Assembly: GCA_947179485.1 (NCBI GenBank)
Contig: OX359246.1
Location: 3,472,001-3,536,000 of the forward strand
Reading direction: 5' to 3'
Source: Allacma fusca
Taxonomy: Eukaryota; Arthropoda; Collembola; Symphypleona; Sminthuridae
DNA length: 64,000 bases
Shown here: one piece after another, positions 11,620 to 57,093 of the stretch
Layout: each line of letters begins with the position of its first letter
How positions within the stretch are numbered: position 1 is the first letter of the stretch
Program-made: the position numbers and the translations under genes
Notes under the pieces: model-generated
Databases searched by the model: none
What the model was told of the DNA's origin: nothing
What the model saw: only the letters and a program-made list of their open reading frames with translations

Positions 11620-11829
11620 ATGAGGCCTGTGAGACTACTTCATGTGCCTTTGGAGCGGAGTGTCTGGTTGAGGGCGGAAGAGCGACTTGTCGATGTCCGG
11701 AGTCTTGCTCAACCACTTACGCTCCCATTTGTGGCACCGACGGCCTCACTTACTCCAACGAGTGCCTGCTCCGTATGTACGCCTGCCAAAATCAGAATTC
11801 CATCCGGATACGACATTCAGGCGAATGTG
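11620..11829 (+). CDS. AGRN: Agrin exon: follistatin-like domain FS1
   Basis: This internal exon codes for one complete FS domain, an EGF-like hairpin followed by a Kazal-type subdomain. It is the most N-terminal FS domain seen. The acceptor is ttttttaattacag at 11,619, and the donor is G|gtcagt at 11,830. Both ends are phase 1. Ten cysteines are in canonical spacing: CETTSC, FGAEC, ATCRC, ESC, then APICGTDGLTYSNEC, YAC and GEC. The Kazal signature C-G-T-D-G-x-T-Y-x-N-E-C is intact. In agrin these domains form the rod-like N-terminal half that binds growth factors and carries glycan chains in the extracellular matrix; that role is family knowledge. Eight FS domains precede the LE pair, as in vertebrate agrin, so this is probably FS1. 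No initiator Met or signal peptide is attached: the upstream atg at 11,601 lies in the acceptor tract. Confidence 0.93.
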
Positions 11830-14658
11830 GTCAGTTTTCCAAAAATTTAGCCCATTTTTACTAAAATATGCACTCAAATTTGAATTTTCGAACGTATTTT
11901 CATCTAAGGGTAAATTAAGCTTGAATTTTGCCGTTTTAGAAAATTTGCAAGAAATTTTACCCTTAAAAGAATTTTTCGTGGTTAAAAATTTTTTCCGGTC
12001 TATTTGTTGCAAATTTCAAAATTTTATTACTCTAAAAATTTAACTATTATTTTGCGTTTTAAAAATGCCGCCCATATTTTTTAAGTTAAAAACGTTTTCT
12101 ATATTTGCCAATTTTTTAAACTTTTTCCCATATTTTTCCATTTTAAAAATTTACCCTCAAAATTTTTCAGCGTTTTGGTCAAAAAATTTTGACATCTCAA
12201 ATTTTTATTTCAATATTTTTTGAATCCCCAGATGCTGGTACTCGTAGACGCAACTTTTTTTTGTAGAACATTATTTTGAACTTGTAATTGAATTTTATGT
12301 TTTTGAAAAACATTTTAAACTCATTTTTTTGGTATTAAAATTTGTGGTAATTGGGTTTTAAATTTTTTGGTAAAATTTTTGTAAAACTCAGTATATCGAT
12401 TCGAAGTTTGATCTTCGCTGGAATTTTAAACGGGTCAAAATTCGCCCCCTCCCCTATGATTTTTTGTAAGGCCAAATTACCACTAAAGTTGAATTATTAC
12501 AGTTTTACAATAAATTAGCGCTTTTGAAAATGACCCATAAATAACAATTTAATAAAATTTCCTACAAATTTAGTTCACGAATTATCTCCTAATTTTCTCA
12601 GATTAAAATCAGCTTGAGTTAAAATTAGACACTTGGCAGCTAAAGATGGAGCAGGAAGATTTCCAGGACCCCCGGCACGGACTCATGTTTGCGAAAATAT
12701 TTATGCAAAACGAATCTCATTATTTGTTTGCTACTTTGGAAAGTGGACTAATATTGAAATAAAGCTGGGTGTATACATTTGAATAATAAATTCCTTCTGG
12801 AATAAATTTCCCGAACAAAATGAAAATAGAAGTTTGAGCAGAGGGATAGGACTAAAGCCGGAAAATTCCAAAAGGAAATATTCCTTGACAAATGAAAATC
12901 CTTTGTAAGATGTGTGTCTCTGTATATGTGTATGGGCCTTGGAGCTAAATCCAGAAAGATGCATAAATTATGAAAGGAAAATTCGAGGGAGAGAGAGAAA
13001 GGGGACAAAGAGAGCTGAGGAATGAGAAACGTCCAAAGGACAAAAGCTCTGCTTATATTTATGTGGCGGAAGACTAAGACAAAAAATAAAAAGGGTTCAA
13101 ACAAGTGAGAAATTAAACAAGTTTCTCTTTTCCTTCGCTCCTGTCTCCTTTTAAAAAATGAAATGAGCTTCTGTCCCTGACTCTTGGTCTTAGCAAAGAG
13201 ATGATGAATGATCGCGCCTCAAATGGGGCTTATATGAAAACAGGGTTCCAGAAAACATTACCCTAATTTTTCAAAAAACTCACATTTTTTCCCTCCCTAA
13301 AAGTTTCACACAATTTTCCAAAATTTTGGTCAAACCCTACATCAATACTTGAGGTCATCGGGGTCAAAAATGCTAACCGCCCTTAAAAACCGCTCAAAAA
13401 ATTATTTCCCCAGATTTGAAAAAAATTGCGTAAAAATCAAGAAACATGAAAACATCACGTTTTTAAAAAATATTTGCGACTGCGCAATGGATTTTTTGAA
13501 AAACCTTTTGACGCAAATGGGTAGAAAATTTTCGGGACCTGTTTTGCCAACCAAAATCTATAACCCACGTTAAAATTTGAGGTCACACGGGTCAAAATTA
13601 TCAGTCACAATAGAGTTTTTTTAATTCTTACAAAATGTAAATTTTAAGGTTTTTAATATAATTTTTAATTCGTAAAATTTCTGTAAATTTTCTTAAAATT
13701 TCGTGTATTTCAAAATGTCTGCGATCAGGCAGATTTTGCTTAAAACGTCGAATAAAGATTTGCACAACCGGCACAAAATTTTGACCCAGGTGCTTTCAAA
13801 ATTTTTGACCGAATTTAAGTCAGTTTAATATTTTTCGGTTTCTATTTTCGGGGGAACAAAATTTTCGGGATTGCCCGTATAGTTGAATATCTTTGCTGTG
13901 TATAAACATTCTACGTATAAATTCTCCCATGTTTTTCTCCCTTGTAAAAAATTTATCCTGGGAAAAAATTCCACCCTTGTCTCACACACACTCCTGGGGT
14001 ACTTGTTATGTGCAAGGAATTTTTAAAAAGCGTCACAAGTCCGGGCATCAAAGCAGTAGCAATGTCTTTTTTCTACATATTTTGACGGAGAAGAAAAAAA
14101 TTGGGCTCCCAAGTTTTAATTAAATTAAAACTTTTCTCTGTCGGGATATCATTAATTCGAAAATAGAGGAGCGTGAATTTTTTTAAATTTTAAGCCTTGC
14201 CAACAACTTTCCTGGTAAAAAAAATAATTTCAAGAGTTCAGTCATTCCTGAACTAAACTTTGATTAGGAACGATGTTTTTTTACCCAAAAAAAATTTAAG
14301 GCTGTTGAAATACGAAACTCCCAAAAATAATGCGGGTTAAAATTTTCCAATCCTGGATTTTTTGCAAAATGTCCAATTCTGGTAAAATTTATTACTTGCG
14401 AAACAAAAACCTTAGGGAGAAGTGTTAAGCACGAAATTAACGCACGCTTCAAAACCTCACCAGCCAATGACAAGCGGAAAATAATGCTGATTGAAGGCTG
14501 GAAAATTTCTGGGAATGCTGAGCGTCGAGAATTTCTCATTTCTCAGACACGAGCAGTAATAGGGCTGACAAAGCGTTTCCCGAAAATTTAATCATGATTG
14601 GTTTGCCGGCTCGATGGTTGCGTCGATTTTTTGTCTAAATTTTATTCTAATGAAAAAA

Positions 14659-15034
14659 TTATATTTTCTCAGTCAAAAATTATATTTTTTCAGTCAAAAA
14701 TTATATTTTTTCAGTCAAAAATTATATTTTTTCAGTCAAAAATTATATTTTCTCAGTCAAAAGTTATATTTTCTCAGTCAAAAATTATATTTTCTCAGTC
14801 AAAAATTATATTTTCTCAGTCAAAAATTATATTTTCTCAGTCAAAAATTATATTTTCTCAGTCAAAAATTATATTTTCTCAGTCAAAAATTATATTTTGT
14901 CAGTCAAAAATTATATTTTGTCAGTCAAAAATTATATTTTGTCAGTCAAAAATTATATTTTGTCAGTCAAAAATTATATTTTCTCAGTCAAAAATTATAT
15001 TTTCTCAGTCAAAAATTATATTTTCTCAGTCAAA
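14659..15034. repeat. 21-bp tandem repeat, about 18 copies
   Basis: The unit attatattttctcagtcaaaa repeats about 18 times. Blocks of variants (ttttttcag, ttttctcag, ttttgtcag) occur in runs, which suggests segmental duplication. With a 21-bp unit and no stop in the unit, all three + frames stay open, giving repetitive peptides such as KLYFLSQ. I treat these as non-coding. Confidence 0.95.
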
Positions 15035-16129
15035 ATTTTTTTAATATCAAAACCCTTAAATTTGTTACGTGTTTTGCGTTTTTGGGGTTAAAATTACACT
15101 CACCAGAGAAAATGCGTAATTTCTCAGGTAATTTGTTTTTTACGCGAAAACCAAAAAAAATTGCCCATAAAACCATGTTTTGCATAAACTTCCCCAAAAC
15201 GTGTAAACTTTCCCCGTTTTTTAATGTGAGAATTTCTTTTAAAATTTTAACGAAATTTTACTGGCGGATATATTTAATGCCAATAATTGTTGCAATTTTG
15301 GTCAAATTTTATTTTCCTATGCCAATTCAGGATATTTAGAAAATTGGTAAAATTTTGATTGAGGATATTCCCGGAAATAGTTTCCCCAATTTGGAAAGCA
15401 AGTGGAAATAATTTGAGGGCGGAATTCGACTTTGCGGAGTTTGACAGTAAGTGGGAAGGATTTTCTCATCAGACGGAAATGTGTATTTCCCAATAAGAGT
15501 AATTACTCCGCATATCCCTCGGGACAGGATCCATAATGAGCTTATATATAGGGGGCGCCATCTTGTGATCGGAGCCCAATTCACCGCAAAATTCCATAAG
15601 ATTTTGTGTGACAAAAAGCCTACTTAAAAGCGGGGATAATTGTTTGGAACGATAAGACCAAGTCATTTGTCGGAGTCGGAGTCGGCAGTCAAGGAATTTG
15701 TCCCAGGAATGGGGCCGCCCTATAACAAATCTACTAAAATTCCTCCAACCCCTGTATATACATGGAGATGTAATGATAGAAGACATGATTTATGACAGAT
15801 TTCTATTTCCTCCAGAATTATTATTGCAGTGATGAAAAAGCGGCTTCCCTCGTGGTTTATCTGAACTTCCCCCTTTTTTACACCGAACAAATTTTCCAAG
15901 GCAAGAGGCAAATGCCAGGATTTTTCTCATATGTGGGTTTTCTGGAACATCAAGAGCAATCGGGATAAGGCTGGAATTCGCTCGAATTTTGTCCTATTTT
16001 TCTGCAAGGAAATTTTTTGCTAAGATCTGATTTCAAATGACTCGAAAATTTTACATAAAATTTTGAATTGAAAATTCATAATGTAATTTTGCAGAAAATT
16101 GCGTTTTAAATTTATGTACACAATTAGGC

Positions 16130-41660: not shown

Positions 41661-41876
41661 AATCTGGAAGCCTCTGCTCAAAACATACATGTTCACCTGG
41701 CGCCATTTGCACGGAGCGTAATAACGAGGCTGTTTGTGAATGTCCGGCGTGCCCATCGGACTATGACCCGGTTTGTGGTTCAGATGGCGTTTCCTACCAG
41801 AATGAGTGCCGCCTCAAAATGGAAGCTTGCCTCACACAAAATGACAAAGTTCATAAGTTGTACAATGGTTTATGCA
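41661..41876 (+). CDS. AGRN: Agrin exon: follistatin-like domain FS5
   Basis: One complete FS domain. The acceptor is cccgttttttcag at 41,660 and the donor is A|gtaagt at 41,877. Both ends are phase 1. Ten cysteines: [37 protein letters not shown] and GLC. The exon ends after the last cysteine with a lone A. Joined to the microexon this gives Asn (AAT), and joined directly to FS6 it also gives Asn (AAT). This exon therefore reads correctly with or without the microexon. The linker after Cys10 is the one that changes length. Confidence 0.93.
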
Positions 41877-42291
41877 GTAAGTTTTAATTTTTTTTCGTTT
41901 ATTGCAATATCATCAAAATTGTGCAAACATTTGAATCAAATTTGTCTGTTTTACATATTTTTTTAGCAAACCCCTTTAATTGCGTTTTCTAGCTAAACGT
42001 GGTATTGTCTTGTTAAATATTTGCAAAAGATTTGTAAATTAATTTATTTGTGTAAAATACTTTTTTACCCTTATCCCTGTGGCATGGAAATCAATTTGTG
42101 TGGTGTACCAAATTTTTCTGAAATGTAAAATGAAATTTGGTAACATTGCTTGACCCGGATGTTTTTGCAGGGGGAAATATAGTTGGGTGTAAAAATTGTC
42201 GGTAGTTACTCAGTGGTTCTTAAAATTTGAGTGTTTTATTTTTAAAATAGTTATTACGGTAAATTTGATTTTCTCCTTTGCTTAATTACAG
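41877..42291 (+). other. AGRN: Agrin intron between FS5 and microexon
   Basis: A 415-bp AT-rich intron (gtaagt...attacag). No repeat array is seen. It ends with a good pyrimidine tract, ttctcctttgcttaattaca. Confidence 0.6.
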
Positions 42292-42318
42292 ATCTAATTC
42301 GTGATTTTAACCCTTACG
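42292..42318 (+). CDS. AGRN: Candidate 27-nt agrin microexon
   Basis: Twenty-seven bases lie between a strong acceptor (ttctcctttgcttaattacag) and a consensus donor (G|gtaagat). With the A that ends FS5 it reads N-LIRDFNPY, and its last G joins AT of FS6 to make Asp. It is phase 1 at both ends, divisible by three and free of stops, so it can be included or skipped without shifting the frame. Inclusion lengthens the FS5-FS6 linker from two residues (Asn-Gly) to eleven without adding cysteines. Vertebrate agrin is known for microexons (the y and z inserts), but those are in the LamG region; one here would be a different insert. The call rests on splice signals and frame only. Confidence 0.6.
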
Positions 42319-45052
42319 GTAAGATGGGCTTTAATGCGGGTTTCATTTTTTTGATTTGCACCTTTTGCAATAAGACGCAATGCAATTACACCTGAGCTTT
42401 TCGTTTATTTTCTGCGATTTGTTGATTCTCGGATTTCAAATTATATCAACGTTGTTTTTTTTACGCTTTTCAATTTTTTAAGAATCCACCATTTGTTTAT
42501 TTTTAATTGCTTAAACCCATTTAAACCATTTAAAAAGTATTTTTTGGCTTTTTTATTTTTTGAAGTATTTCACGCTATTATTTGAAATTTATATGTTTTT
42601 CTGATATTTGATTTCCAGCTTAACCCATTTTGTACCGATTTTCGTATCCAAGAGCATACTTGGGATTTGTTGTGGATATTGTCCGTTTTAAACTAAGAAT
42701 TTTTATGGTTTACCGAATTTTATCTCTTATAGGAATTGGATATATCAATTTTTAGGCACTGCCAAATATGACTTTTTAACCATTTTTATCAGCTCACTAA
42801 ATTTTGAGCGGATATAAATTTTTATAATTTCTCCAATATTTACCAGTTGCCCAACGTTTACCCTTTCCTAAATTTTTACTATTCATCCAATGTTACGCTT
42901 GTCCCAGATAGCATTTTACCAATCTAATTAATTTGACTAAGAATTAGGAACCTACCAATTTTTACCATTTTAGTGATTTTTTTATCGATTTTTACGGGCT
43001 TACTAATTATTGTTTTTTTCGGTTTCTATTTATTATTATTTTGAATTTTTTACCCATTTTTACCTTTAGCAAATTTTACCTTTTACAAACATTTTCAGTG
43101 TTTCTAATTTTATCATTTGACTAATGTATTACAAACTTTTACAACTATTTTGTAAATGTTTAAGTTTTACCAAAATTGTATGATGAAGTTGTATGTTAAG
43201 CTAAGAAAATTAAGTTTTATAATTTTTACCGATTTTACTACTCAACTAATTTGATCAATGAACCAATTTATTAACACTGAATCAATTTTTACCACTAATC
43301 ACCAATTTTAGGGCTAAACAAATTTTTACCACTTTCAAATTTTTACACCACTTTCAAATTTTTGCCGTTCCTCCAAATTTTATCCTAATTCGAATTTTAA
43401 CCGCTGCTTCAATTTTTACCGCTGCTCCAATTTTTACCGCTGAACCAGTTTTTACCACGAAACCAATTTTTACTATAAATCCAATTTTTACCATAAAATC
43501 AATTTTTAAAGCTGAACCAGTTTTTACCACTAAACACCAATTTTTAGGGCTAGACCAAGTTTTACCATTATTCCAATTTTTACCACTTTCAAATTTTTAC
43601 ACCACTTTCAAATTTTTGCCGTTCCTCCAAATTTTGTCGTAATTCGAATTTTAACCGCTGCTTCAATTTTTACCGCTGCTCCAATTTTTACCGCTGAACC
43701 AGTTTTTACCACGAAACCAATTTTTACTATAAATCCAATTTTTACCATAAAATCAATTTTTAAAGCTGAACCAGTTTTTACCACTAAACACCAATTTTTA
43801 GGGCTAGACCAAGTTTTACCATTATTCCAATTTTTACCATTTTCAAATTTTTACACCACTTTCAAATGTTTGCCATTGCTCCGATTTTTATCGCAATTCC
43901 AATTTTTACCGCTGAACCAGTTTTTACCACGAAACCAGTTTTTACCATAAAACCTATTTTTACCATAAAACCTATTTTTCCGCTGAACCAGTTTTTACCA
44001 CGAAACAAATTTGTACCATAAAACCAACTTTTACCGCTGAACCAATTTTAACACTAAATAAATTTTTACCACTGAACCAATTTTTACCAATAAATAAATT
44101 GTTACCCTTAAAAATTTGTTTATCATTAAACCAATTTTTACTACATTTGCCATTGGTACTAGCTATGCTATGAACTTCTTATATTTTTTACCACTTCTTA
44201 TAATTATGTCTATTCACAACGTTTCACAATTTCAAATATTTCCCACTTTGTACTACATCAAATTCGTTCACGTTTCGCTACTTGCTAATTTCACCACCTT
44301 AATACTATTACGACAGTTACGAGCTATTACTCTTTTCCCTTTGATAGTTTTAAAGTTAAAAGCTGATTTTTGATAGTAGCTTATTTAAGGCCTGAGTGTT
44401 TGTAGTTTGAACAAAATTTGTCGGTTTTACCGTTTTGAAAGGAGTAATTTGAAATATGTCCGGTTTGTTCTTCTCAACCCAATCCCAAGTTAAATGCATT
44501 CATCAAGCTTTCTTTCCTGTTTTTTGTGTTAGAACAATTTTCATGTTTGGTGCTTTACCCGACAACGGTACGTGCTTAAAATTTTGCATGCTTGTATTAC
44601 TGCAGAGAGAAAATAGGATTTAAATAGGATTGTTTGAGGACTGTCCCTCTCTCCCAGATTTGCTTGAACTGACTGTGTTTGGCGAATGTACTGGTTATGA
44701 TTTGCATAAAAATGTCGGGCGCATGTTTTACATTGGCAATTTGAAAGCTTTCTTTAGGAAGGACTGCCATTAGGAGGATAATAGGAAGGAAATTGCAACC
44801 ACAAAACATGAAAATTGCGCAACTTTTGCTATGCATTCTCAAAATGACACAATTAGACCCAAAAGTAATGTTAGCATATAAAAAAATTGTTTTGATGCAG
44901 CATAAGATCTCACGCTGATATTTTCACCCGAGCAATTTGTGGGCATTAGAGAATCATAAAATGACATTGAATTTTAAATGGGAAAAATTTCCCAAGGGAA
45001 TGGAAATTCGGAGGGAAATCAATGCTAAATGGGAAAACTTGAATTGGTTTAG
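42319..45052 (+). other. AGRN: Agrin intron between microexon and FS6
   Basis: A 2.7-kb intron that contains the 43,300-44,110 higher-order array. The rest (42,340-43,280 and 44,120-45,040) is AT-rich, with complex sequence at 44,380-45,040. No exon is supported. Confidence 0.7.
43290..44110. repeat. Accaatttttacc array with a 254-bp higher-order repeat
   Basis: Monomers of 17-18 bp (ccaatttttaccgctgaa and variants) are organised into a higher-order unit. The landmark gggctaga/gggctaaa occurs at 43,311, 43,547 and 43,801. The second and third units are 254 bp apart and nearly identical; the first is 236 bp, missing one 18-bp monomer. This is satellite-like structure generated by unequal exchange. 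Confidence 0.92.
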
Positions 45053-45153
45053 ATGGCTGTGACCGGAAACAATGTGACTTTTACGCAGTTTGTATTTCCG
45101 ACCCGGAAACTTCCGAAACCAAATGTATTTGCCCGGAAAATTGCACGCGGGAG
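45053..45153 (+). CDS. AGRN: Agrin exon: EGF-like half of FS6
   Basis: This exon codes for the first half of an FS domain. The acceptor is ttggtttag at 45,052 (phase 1) and the donor is GAG|gtaagc at 45,154 (phase 0). Six of the ten cysteines are here: GCDRKQC, YAVC, TKCIC and ENC. The Kazal half is in the next exon, with the frame continuing exactly. ENCTRE contains N-C-T, an N-glycosylation sequon. All FS exons before this one are single, so an intron inside the domain is a change of pattern; FS9 shows the same split. Confidence 0.92.
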
Positions 45154-46635: not shown

Positions 46636-46759
46636 AGTGGGCTGTGGAACTCCGTGGTGTGTGGGACGGATGGGATGACGTACAGCAGCGAGTGTGAGTT
46701 GCGGAGAGCGGCTTGTCAACATCACAAAGTCATTTTCGTCGCATCCAAAGGCCATTGTG
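46636..46759 (+). CDS. AGRN: Agrin exon: Kazal half of FS6
   Basis: This exon completes FS6. The acceptor is tatttatgcag at 46,635 (phase 0) and the donor is G|gtgagt at 46,760 (phase 1). It supplies the last four cysteines: SVVCGTDGMTYSSEC, AAC and GHC. The residues before the Kazal core (SGLWNS) are unusual, since most FS domains here have Pro before the V/I-C; the loop may differ in shape. The exon has a higher GC content than its neighbours. Confidence 0.93.
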
Positions 46760-47314: not shown

Positions 47315-47519
47315 AAATCATCCCACATCACTCATTGTCTAACGTCAGGTATAGCAATAACATAGGGTTCGTACATATGAGTCCATATGGTGCCTTCCTG
47401 GGACATCGGGTCTAAATTTATCATTACGCCCCCCTACGTTTATATTGAGGTCAAAGGTAAAACTAGCAAAATGTATTTTATTTTTGTATTTTGTAAGCAC
47501 ATTGCGTATTTATATTTTA

Positions 47520-55363: not shown

Positions 55364-57093
55364 GTCTCCTCATTTTCATTTAAAGCTCCAAACAAGTCTC
55401 ATAATGACACTTTCCACATTCAACTTAGGATGCATGTTCAACATTGAGATCCATTTGACCTTCAAATGACTTTGTATTGACCTACGTCTGACATGCAAAT
55501 GCAGGTTGGGATCAGTTGGCTCTAAAATTGACGTGCACTTTAGGTTGTGTCTTGAAATTGACATTGACACTAGTTAAACTTATTTGACATTGGTACGAAT
55601 TGACCTTCATTTGAAATTGACACGAGTTGACCCTCATTCGACATTCAAACAAGTTGACCTTCATTTGACATTGACACAAGTTGACCCTCATTCGACATTC
55701 AAACAAGTTGACCTTCATTTGACATTGACACCAGTTGACCTTCACTTTACATTGACACTAGTTAACCGTGATTTGACATTGACAAGAGTTGACCTTCATT
55801 TGACATTGAAACAAGTTGACCTGAATTTGAAATTGACATCAGTTGACCTTTATTTTACAGTGACATCAGTTGACCTTTATTTTACAGTGACATCAGTTGA
55901 CCTTTATTTTACAGTGACACTAGTTGACCGTCATTTGACATTGCCACGAGTTGGCGGTCATTTGACATTGCCACGAGTTGGCGGTCATTTGACATTGACA
56001 CGAGTTGGCGGTCATCTAATATTGACACGAGTTGACCTTCATTTGACACTGATACGAGTTGACCTTCATTTGACATTGGCACTAGTTGACCTTTATTTTA
56101 CATTGACACGAGTTGACGGTCATCTGATATTGACACGAGTTGACCTTCATTTGACATTGGGACTAGTTGACCTTTATTTTACTTTGGCACTGGTTGACCT
56201 TTATTTTACATTGACACTAGTTGACCGTCATTTGACATTGACACTAGTTGACGGTCATTTGACATTGCCACGAGTTGGCGGTCATTTGACATTGACACGA
56301 GTTGGCGGTCATCTAATATTGACACGAGTTGACCTTCATTTGACACTGATACGAGTTGACATTCATTTGACATTGGCACTAGTTGACCTTTATTTTACAT
56401 TGACACGAGTTGACCGTCATTTGACATTGACACTAGTTGGCGGTCATTTGACATTGATACGAGTTGGCGGTCATCTAATATTGACACGAGTTGACCTTCA
56501 TTTGACATTGGGACTAGTTGACCTTTATTTTACATTGGCACTAGTTGACCTTTATTTTACATTGGCACTAGTTGACCGTCATTTGAAATTGACACTAGTT
56601 GACGGTCATTTGACATTGCCACGAGTTGGCGGTCATTTGACATTGACACGAGTTGACCGTCATCAGATATTGACACAAGTTGACCTTGAATTTTGGAACC
56701 TAAACTGACCTTAACTTGTATAAAAGTAATTCACATTGCATTACTCTTTTAACATTAATTTGATTTAACACTAGCTTGAAATTTGCTGACCATATGTGAC
56801 ATTTAGTTGACCATTGCTTGACCTAATTTGTTTTAACTCGAACGAAGCCCTAAATTTGAAGTTTCTTGCATGCACAACTTTACAATCCCTAATATTGTGT
56901 GATATATGCATTTGGAAAGGGAAAAGTAATTAAAACGTCGACAAAATTTCCACCCGCATTTTCGCCTGAAATTGAATAGAAGGATAAAGTTACAGGGGAA
57001 AAAGTTGCTTTTAAGTTCCAAAAACTTTGTGATGCTTCAAGTGACAATTTTTGGATCCTAGCCCTGAAAAATATTTTACCAATTTTTTTCCAG
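55364..57093 (+). other. AGRN: Agrin intron FS8-lustrin module
   Basis: A 1.7-kb intron almost filled by the 27-bp array (55,575-56,715). Reading through the donor hits a stop eight codons later, so the array frame is not continuous with the agrin frame. Confidence 0.8.
55440..56715. repeat. 27-bp ttgacnntcatttgacattg array with a 297-bp higher-order repeat
   Basis: About 40 copies of a 27-bp unit, agttgaccttcatttgacat plus tgacacg, are strict from 55,575; looser related sequence starts near 55,440. The rare variant gtcatctaatattgacacg occurs at 56,011 and 56,308, 297 bp apart, which is 11 units; neighbouring variants repeat in the same order. Since 27 is a multiple of 3, a 374-codon open frame of VDLHLTLTR-type nonapeptides runs from 55,584. 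I interpret the array as satellite DNA, not protein. Confidence 0.93.

Follow-up and report, generated by a model that had tools for sequence, protein, structure and literature searches.

A probable cassette microexon between follistatin domains 5 and 6, conserved in both agrin genes of Allacma fusca

The agrin gene of the collembolan Allacma fusca found in the window analyzed here (64,000 nucleotides (nt) of contig OX359246.1; G000:C8:3472001-3536000) harbors a 27-nt microexon between the exons of follistatin (FS) domains 5 and 6. A strong pyrimidine tract, an acceptor, 27 open bases and a donor had been predicted at 42292-42318 of the window, and all of them are present in the sequence. The microexon is almost certainly a real exon, given that the same exon has been retained by an anciently duplicated copy of the gene in this genome. 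Our preferred interpretation, held with moderate confidence, is that it is a genuine agrin microexon that is older than the gene duplication, was kept in both copies by selection on the peptide, and is probably used as a cassette. Position, length, frame, usable splice sites, and conserved core can be read from the sequence, as can the absence of any further strong conservation in the intron; the cassette use we infer. The element has the predicted properties of a protein-coding microexon in that it does not exceed 27 nt, is open, preserves the frame, is flanked by usable splice sites, and is conserved, namely in the paralogue.

A frame-neutral exon shared by two agrin genes

The codon at the junction of FS5 and the first-half exon of FS6 (FS6a) is split, with one base contributed by FS5 (A, 41876) and two by FS6a. 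Inclusion of the microexon yields N-LIRDFNPY-D-G-C and skipping yields N-G-C, both in open frames, so the original prediction of frame-neutrality (N-LIRDFNPY-D upon inclusion, N upon skipping) holds with phase 1 at the junctions. The accompanying statement that nearly all exons of the gene share phase 1 is accurate for the FS exons, whereas the junction of FS6a with the second-half exon (FS6b) is in phase 0 and several LamG exons are in other phases.

A search for Kazal domains across the genome (392.7 Mb, 91 contigs) revealed a second cluster on the minus strand of the same contig, which an exon-by-exon comparison identified as a second agrin gene. The two genes are arranged head to head with their FS1 exons ∼185 kb apart. 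The FS5-FS6 intron of the paralogue contains a microexon of the same length, phase, and order (...TTTGAATCTTTCAG, ATCTTATTCGCGATTTTAACCGTGCTG, and GTAAGAAC in succession, with the acceptor TTTCAG and the donor GTAAGA) that is identical to the window copy at 21 of 27 bases and reads N-LIRDFNRA-D. Both mismatches within bases 1-20 fall on synonymous third positions, and the core NLIRDFN is conserved between the two copies. Conservation of the 27 bases and their splice sites, proposed as a check in close relatives, is thus observed with the paralogue standing in for such a relative.

The divergence of the two genes was measured on 16 of the 28 anchored exon pairs, with the microexon kept apart. 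Protein identity ranges from 56 to 87%, and identity at synonymous positions amounts to 105 of 281 four-fold degenerate sites and 206 of 394 other synonymous codons. The low identity at four-fold sites indicates an old duplication. The microexon would predate it, and selection on the peptide may have retained both copies.

Splice sites and the likelihood of coincidence

The 28 anchored exon pairs supplied 39 acceptors and 32 donors that we deemed reliable for the splice-site matrices, with the microexon excluded and unsure sites dropped. Ranked from the weakest, the microexon acceptors occupy places 9 (window) and 20 (paralogue) of 39 and the donors places 13 and 14 of 32; the splice sites of both copies therefore lie inside the normal range. 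When the microexon's own scores are taken as thresholds, its intron yields no other candidate with a length of 9-60 nt divisible by three.

One possibility that such counts address is a pseudo-exon, that is, a chance pair of acceptor and donor in an AT-rich intron. The antisense strands (204 kb) contain seven open candidates, or 0.11 per 3175 nt, which means that a single copy could be a coincidence in about 1 of 10 introns of such size. The doubt is removed by the homologous intron of the paralogue, which holds a 27-mer of the same length and phase with splice sites and frame kept. A chance pseudo-exon was rejected on this ground and is the least probable of the explanations considered.

The two genes were also scanned in pairs across 27 homologous intervals for candidates of equal length (6-90 nt) whose sites exceeded set scores, and 13 of the intervals contained some in both copies. 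The microexon is the sole match with a score of at least 7 (13.8), and no score of 7 or more arose when antisense candidates (190 x 142) were paired by equal length. Within the same range of lengths and the 13 of 27 intervals that could be compared, the other intervals of the two genes revealed no further hidden conserved microexon. A blastn comparison of the two FS5-FS6 introns places the best match over the microexon (39 nt, 82%, E 2e-5), followed by a match with an E value of 0.003.

The blastn match extends slightly past the exon, as would be expected of a conserved non-coding element, involved in splicing or transcription, whose frame is open by chance. Such an element is very improbable, only marginally less so than a pseudo-exon: the extension is roughly as long as the consensus sequences of acceptor and donor, the changes in the core are synonymous, and nothing is conserved further out. 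A conserved intronic enhancer around the microexon likewise received no support, as the flanks do not align above shuffles. The 241 nt around the microexon, used as a query in a DNA search that skips very common words, match only themselves in the genome, and a mobile or repeated element is accordingly unsupported.

Cassette or constitutive exon

A real exon may still be constitutive, in which case the FS5-FS6 linker of agrin in this lineage would invariably comprise 11 residues, encoded in part by a tiny exon. This is a serious alternative, though one we consider distinctly less probable than a regulated cassette, itself only moderately likely. Consistent with a constitutive exon, neither copy has splice sites outside the normal range, and the peptide is as conserved as the adjoining exons (6 of 8 residues identical versus 48 of 70 and 20 of 29 in its neighbors). 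The flanking introns, compared in four windows that left out the last 20 nt upstream and the first 6 nt downstream, align no better than shuffles (p 0.34, 0.99, 0.67, and 0.95) at a paralogue distance that is saturated. The conserved flanks of a regulated microexon are thus not seen in this paralogue comparison, and a constitutive exon fits as well. In addition, the cDNA work on Caenorhabditis elegans agr-1 is reported to have found no alternative splicing (PMC1939731). Set against a constitutive exon, none of it decisively, are the strict frame-neutrality of the exon, the fact that skipping leaves an ordinary agrin linker, and the frequent tissue regulation of C. elegans microexons (described in PMC7706725).

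Beyond the unaligned flanks, several observations weigh against a conserved cassette microexon. The window acceptor scores under the median on the full acceptor matrix. TGC and TCTC occur near the window acceptor, whereas the paralogue acceptor has neither, and CTAAY is absent within 40 nt of both microexon copies. The last two residues differ (PY in the window, RA in the paralogue), and the conservation of the microexon rests on one comparison, with the paralogue, within a single genome. Finally, the antisense strand of the paralogue region contains a 20/27 match to the bare 27-mer, a point that favors a pseudo-exon as well; what counts is therefore that position, reading frame, and splice sites all coincide.

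The acceptors are distinguished by their pyrimidine content. Of the 20 bases at positions -23 to -4, 16 or 17 are pyrimidines in each of the two microexon acceptors, a level (at least 16) reached by only 2 of the 39 other acceptors; for this count and that of the AG exclusion zone, the window FS2 acceptor was shifted by 9 nt after alignment. The AG exclusion zone measures 39 in the window and 57 in the paralogue, compared with a median of 33 for the 39 acceptors. UGC lies near 15 and UCUC near 4 of the 39 ordinary acceptors. The long polypyrimidine tract may compensate for the small size of the exon and aid its inclusion, which would be confined to some tissues if the microexon is a cassette.

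The genome also seems to encode an eMIC-like domain. A weak SRRM_C profile match (E 0.025, under the cut-off; one bacterial control genome also matched under the cut-off) sits in an RS-rich frame ending PRRRGSPSFLDRRRIT at G000:C8:48690141-48690302. A Pfam scan of this frame alone gave no match. A few hundred nt past the frame, an open stretch encodes SARKRPIPYKR after an AG, and the region of PRRRGSPSFLDRRRIT and SARKRPIPYKR is what we take to be the eMIC core. The locus is probably a gene of the Srrm type with an eMIC-like ending, which suggests a neural microexon program in A. fusca.

The interdomain linker and putative roles of the insert

The microexon turns an FS5-FS6 linker of two residues, measured from Cys to Cys, into one of 11 residues, as had been predicted. 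Elsewhere in the gene the linkers comprise 5 (FS1-FS2, with the FS2 acceptor realigned), 2 (FS2-FS3), 6 (FS3-FS4), 5 (FS4-FS5), and 2 residues (FS6-FS7). The agrin chain 8s9p_A of the PDB reads C-DR-C at the presumed FS5-FS6 position, which is the length of the short form; this reading was taken from the chain, as the cysteines are unpaired in the HMMER alignment. The homologous place was chosen by domain order and best score (61.6 bits at 467-599 versus 57.0 for the next pair, 602-750). The skipped form therefore has a known architecture, relative to which the microexon is an addition.

Skipping would thus produce the ordinary two-residue linker, and inclusion a nine-residue loop that parts the two FS domains and exposes a short, conserved peptide. 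BMP2, BMP4, and TGF-beta1 are bound by the N-terminal half of agrin (as reported in PMC2874008), and hence the spacing of FS domains could matter; the loop may alter ligand binding or domain spacing in this growth-factor-binding half. A hinge is one hypothetical role of the insert and a docking peptide another. A search of the PDB with the linker peptide gave one match, at chance level (E 0.71).

The docking hypothesis derives from N-L-I-R, which arises from the FS5 junction codon and the microexon and consists of NXI followed by a basic residue. Inclusion would switch on a putative binding to a propeller of the LRP4/5/6 type, independently of the chordate Z exons. This role is compatible with a cassette microexon and is unlikely. 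The motif was spotted after the fact, 3.5% of windows contain Nx[IV], and a further NxI[KR] lies within FS1 of the window agrin. The conservation in the paralogue is not independent, and DFN is conserved as well. Moreover, the motif is not peculiar to the microexon, since every vertebrate and invertebrate agrin is said to possess a constitutive N-X-I/V ahead of the Z site (PMC12445529). Slightly less likely still is the larger proposal that N-L-I-R, exposed in an interdomain loop, constitutes a second, independently evolved agrin microexon switch that would turn on putative LRP4/5/6-type binding, performing the job of the Z exon at the opposite end of the protein.

A gene with the propeller signatures WPN and HPF lies at G000:C1:44868388-44871229 and is presumably LRP5/6-like. 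YWTD-propeller matches of equal score and alternating orientation occur at G000:C10:47940662-48181029 and G000:C11:28722-179605. Five on C11 share their orientation and, roughly, their spacing (about 39, 21, 39, and 51 kb) with five on C10, and C11 may hence represent either a duplicated block or an alternate haplotype.

Gene identity and features of the locus

Both gene copies carry FS1-FS8, a lustrin-type cysteine module, LE1-LE2, FS9, an EB-like module, and LamG exons. The FS domains, two laminin-EGF modules, further FS domain, and EGF/LamG modules, with agrin as the nearest relative, identify the gene as agrin. In a PDB search, agrin 8s9p_A is the top match for FS5-FS6 (2.3e-52) and for one LamG exon (4.8e-21); with another LamG exon as the query, neurexin chains (2e-14) outscore agrin (2.5e-6). 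Comparison of the PDB agrin with the LG3 position before the Z site gave no match. A Pfam scan matched EB, with Lustrin just under the cut-off and a nematode-TNFR-like family also under it; these matches hint only at a non-vertebrate animal. As for a nematode origin, which was among the readings rejected, no exact SL1 22-mer was present, and a TTR-52 search that lacked a positive control gave no match. Among viral contigs, no relative of the FS5 exon was confirmed.

The coordinates of the locus are listed in Table 1, in which FS numbering takes the exon at window position 11620 as FS1. The intron downstream of the microexon contains long degenerate repeats of the TTTTTACC type at 43262-44100. 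Shortly after the FS8 exon, a 376-codon open frame at 55578-56708 consists of tandem repeats (LTRVDLHLTLT type) and is probably an intronic minisatellite. A tandem repeat at 14569-15339 with three open frames (YFLSQKL / IIFSQSK) and an apparent 21-nt unit is probably a minisatellite too.

Table 1. Features of the two agrin genes and of the microexon region (window positions unless a contig is given).
Feature	Coordinates	Strand	Details
Window agrin gene	G000:C8 about 3483600-3545000; window 11620-64000	+	
FS5 exon (Kazal/follistatin domain)	41661..41876	+	216 nt; phase 1/1; 3' end TGC A, then gtaagt; Kazal_1 E 1.1e-11
Intron upstream of microexon	41877..42291	+	415 nt
Microexon acceptor TTTTCTCCTTTGCTTAATTACAG	42269..42291	+	16/20 pyrimidines in -23..-4; ends ATTACAG
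Microexon ATCTAATTCGTGATTTTAACCCTTACG	42292..42318	+	27 nt; open; phase 1/1; (N)LIRDFNPY(D)
Junction of FS5 last base with microexon			A, then ATCTNATTCGNGATTTTAAC
Microexon donor GTAAGATGG	42319..42327	+	gtaagat; donor matrix rank 13/32 from weakest
Intron downstream of microexon	42319..45052	+	2734 nt; long repeat stretch
FS6 first-half exon (FS6a)	45053..45153	+	begins ATGG after tttag; start phase 1, end phase 0
FS6 second-half exon (FS6b)	46636..46759	+	tentative acceptor position
Second agrin gene	G000:C8 about 3243000-3298600 (~3.243-3.299 Mb)	-	
Paralogue microexon	G000:C8:3272586-3272612	-	reverse-complement coordinate 47389-47415; in FS5-FS6 intron

Comparison with known agrin inserts and microexons

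No paper on an FS5-FS6 microexon of agrin was among the matches listed in searches of the open-access literature. The original prediction placed the known tiny alternative exons of vertebrate agrin in the C-terminal LamG region; restricting them to that region is too strong, as inserts at the N-terminus of chick agrin and at the x site of rat agrin are on record (PMC4210653, PMC6966886). The chick insert has seven residues and is seemingly neuron-specific (Denzer 1995 as cited in PMC4210653), while the rat x-site insert follows the SEA domain (PMC6966886). Both resemble the microexon in being small and outside the LamG region. The chick insert lies at the N-terminal splicing site of the NtA-containing form, and the chick and rat positions differ from that of the microexon, with no link to FS5-FS6 known from these sources.

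Among invertebrates, agr-1 of C. elegans is similarly an agrin with a follistatin-rich N-terminal half; it differs in having 29 exons with no alternative splicing reported (PMC1939731). Caenorhabditis, described as being without the eMIC domain, has microexons with conserved flanking introns (PMC7706725), a conservation that the flanks of the agrin microexon do not show. The exons that depend on eMIC are characterized by longer pyrimidine tracts, UGC motifs, UCUC, strong branch points, and extremely weak 3' splice sites (PMC8797185). The microexon is like these SRRM-dependent neural microexons in its very short length, preserved frame, long pyrimidine tract, and the eMIC-like domain that the genome seems to encode. 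It departs from them in that UGC lies near the acceptor of just one copy, CTAAY is missing within 40 nt, and the 3' splice sites are not extremely weak.

Microexons that switch the function of a protein have their textbook example in agrin, where the switch sits at the C-terminal end and has been proposed to have originated in chordates (PMC12445529). A deeply conserved microexon located elsewhere, in the poorly understood follistatin half of a non-chordate agrin, would imply that tuning of agrin by tiny exons arose more than once. That the microexon can be recognized at all is owed to the duplicated gene, which supplied its own control. A defined nine-residue insert would also provide a handle on the role of the N-terminal half in growth-factor binding, LRP contact, or spacing.

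The closest parallel is found in the Z (B/z) microexons of chordates, which are suggested to be a chordate-specific innovation; the 2025 chordate study reports no evidence that potential microexons in the agrin of nematodes or sea urchins carry N-X-I/V/F (PMC12445529). Like the Z exons, the Allacma microexon is a tiny, frame-neutral agrin exon whose inclusion supplies N-X-I/V, here the N-L-I that the exon of either gene copy creates together with the junction codon. The Z exons are located in the LG3 region, are neuron-specific, and depend on Nova (PMC12445529), whereas the Allacma microexon lies instead between FS5 and FS6.
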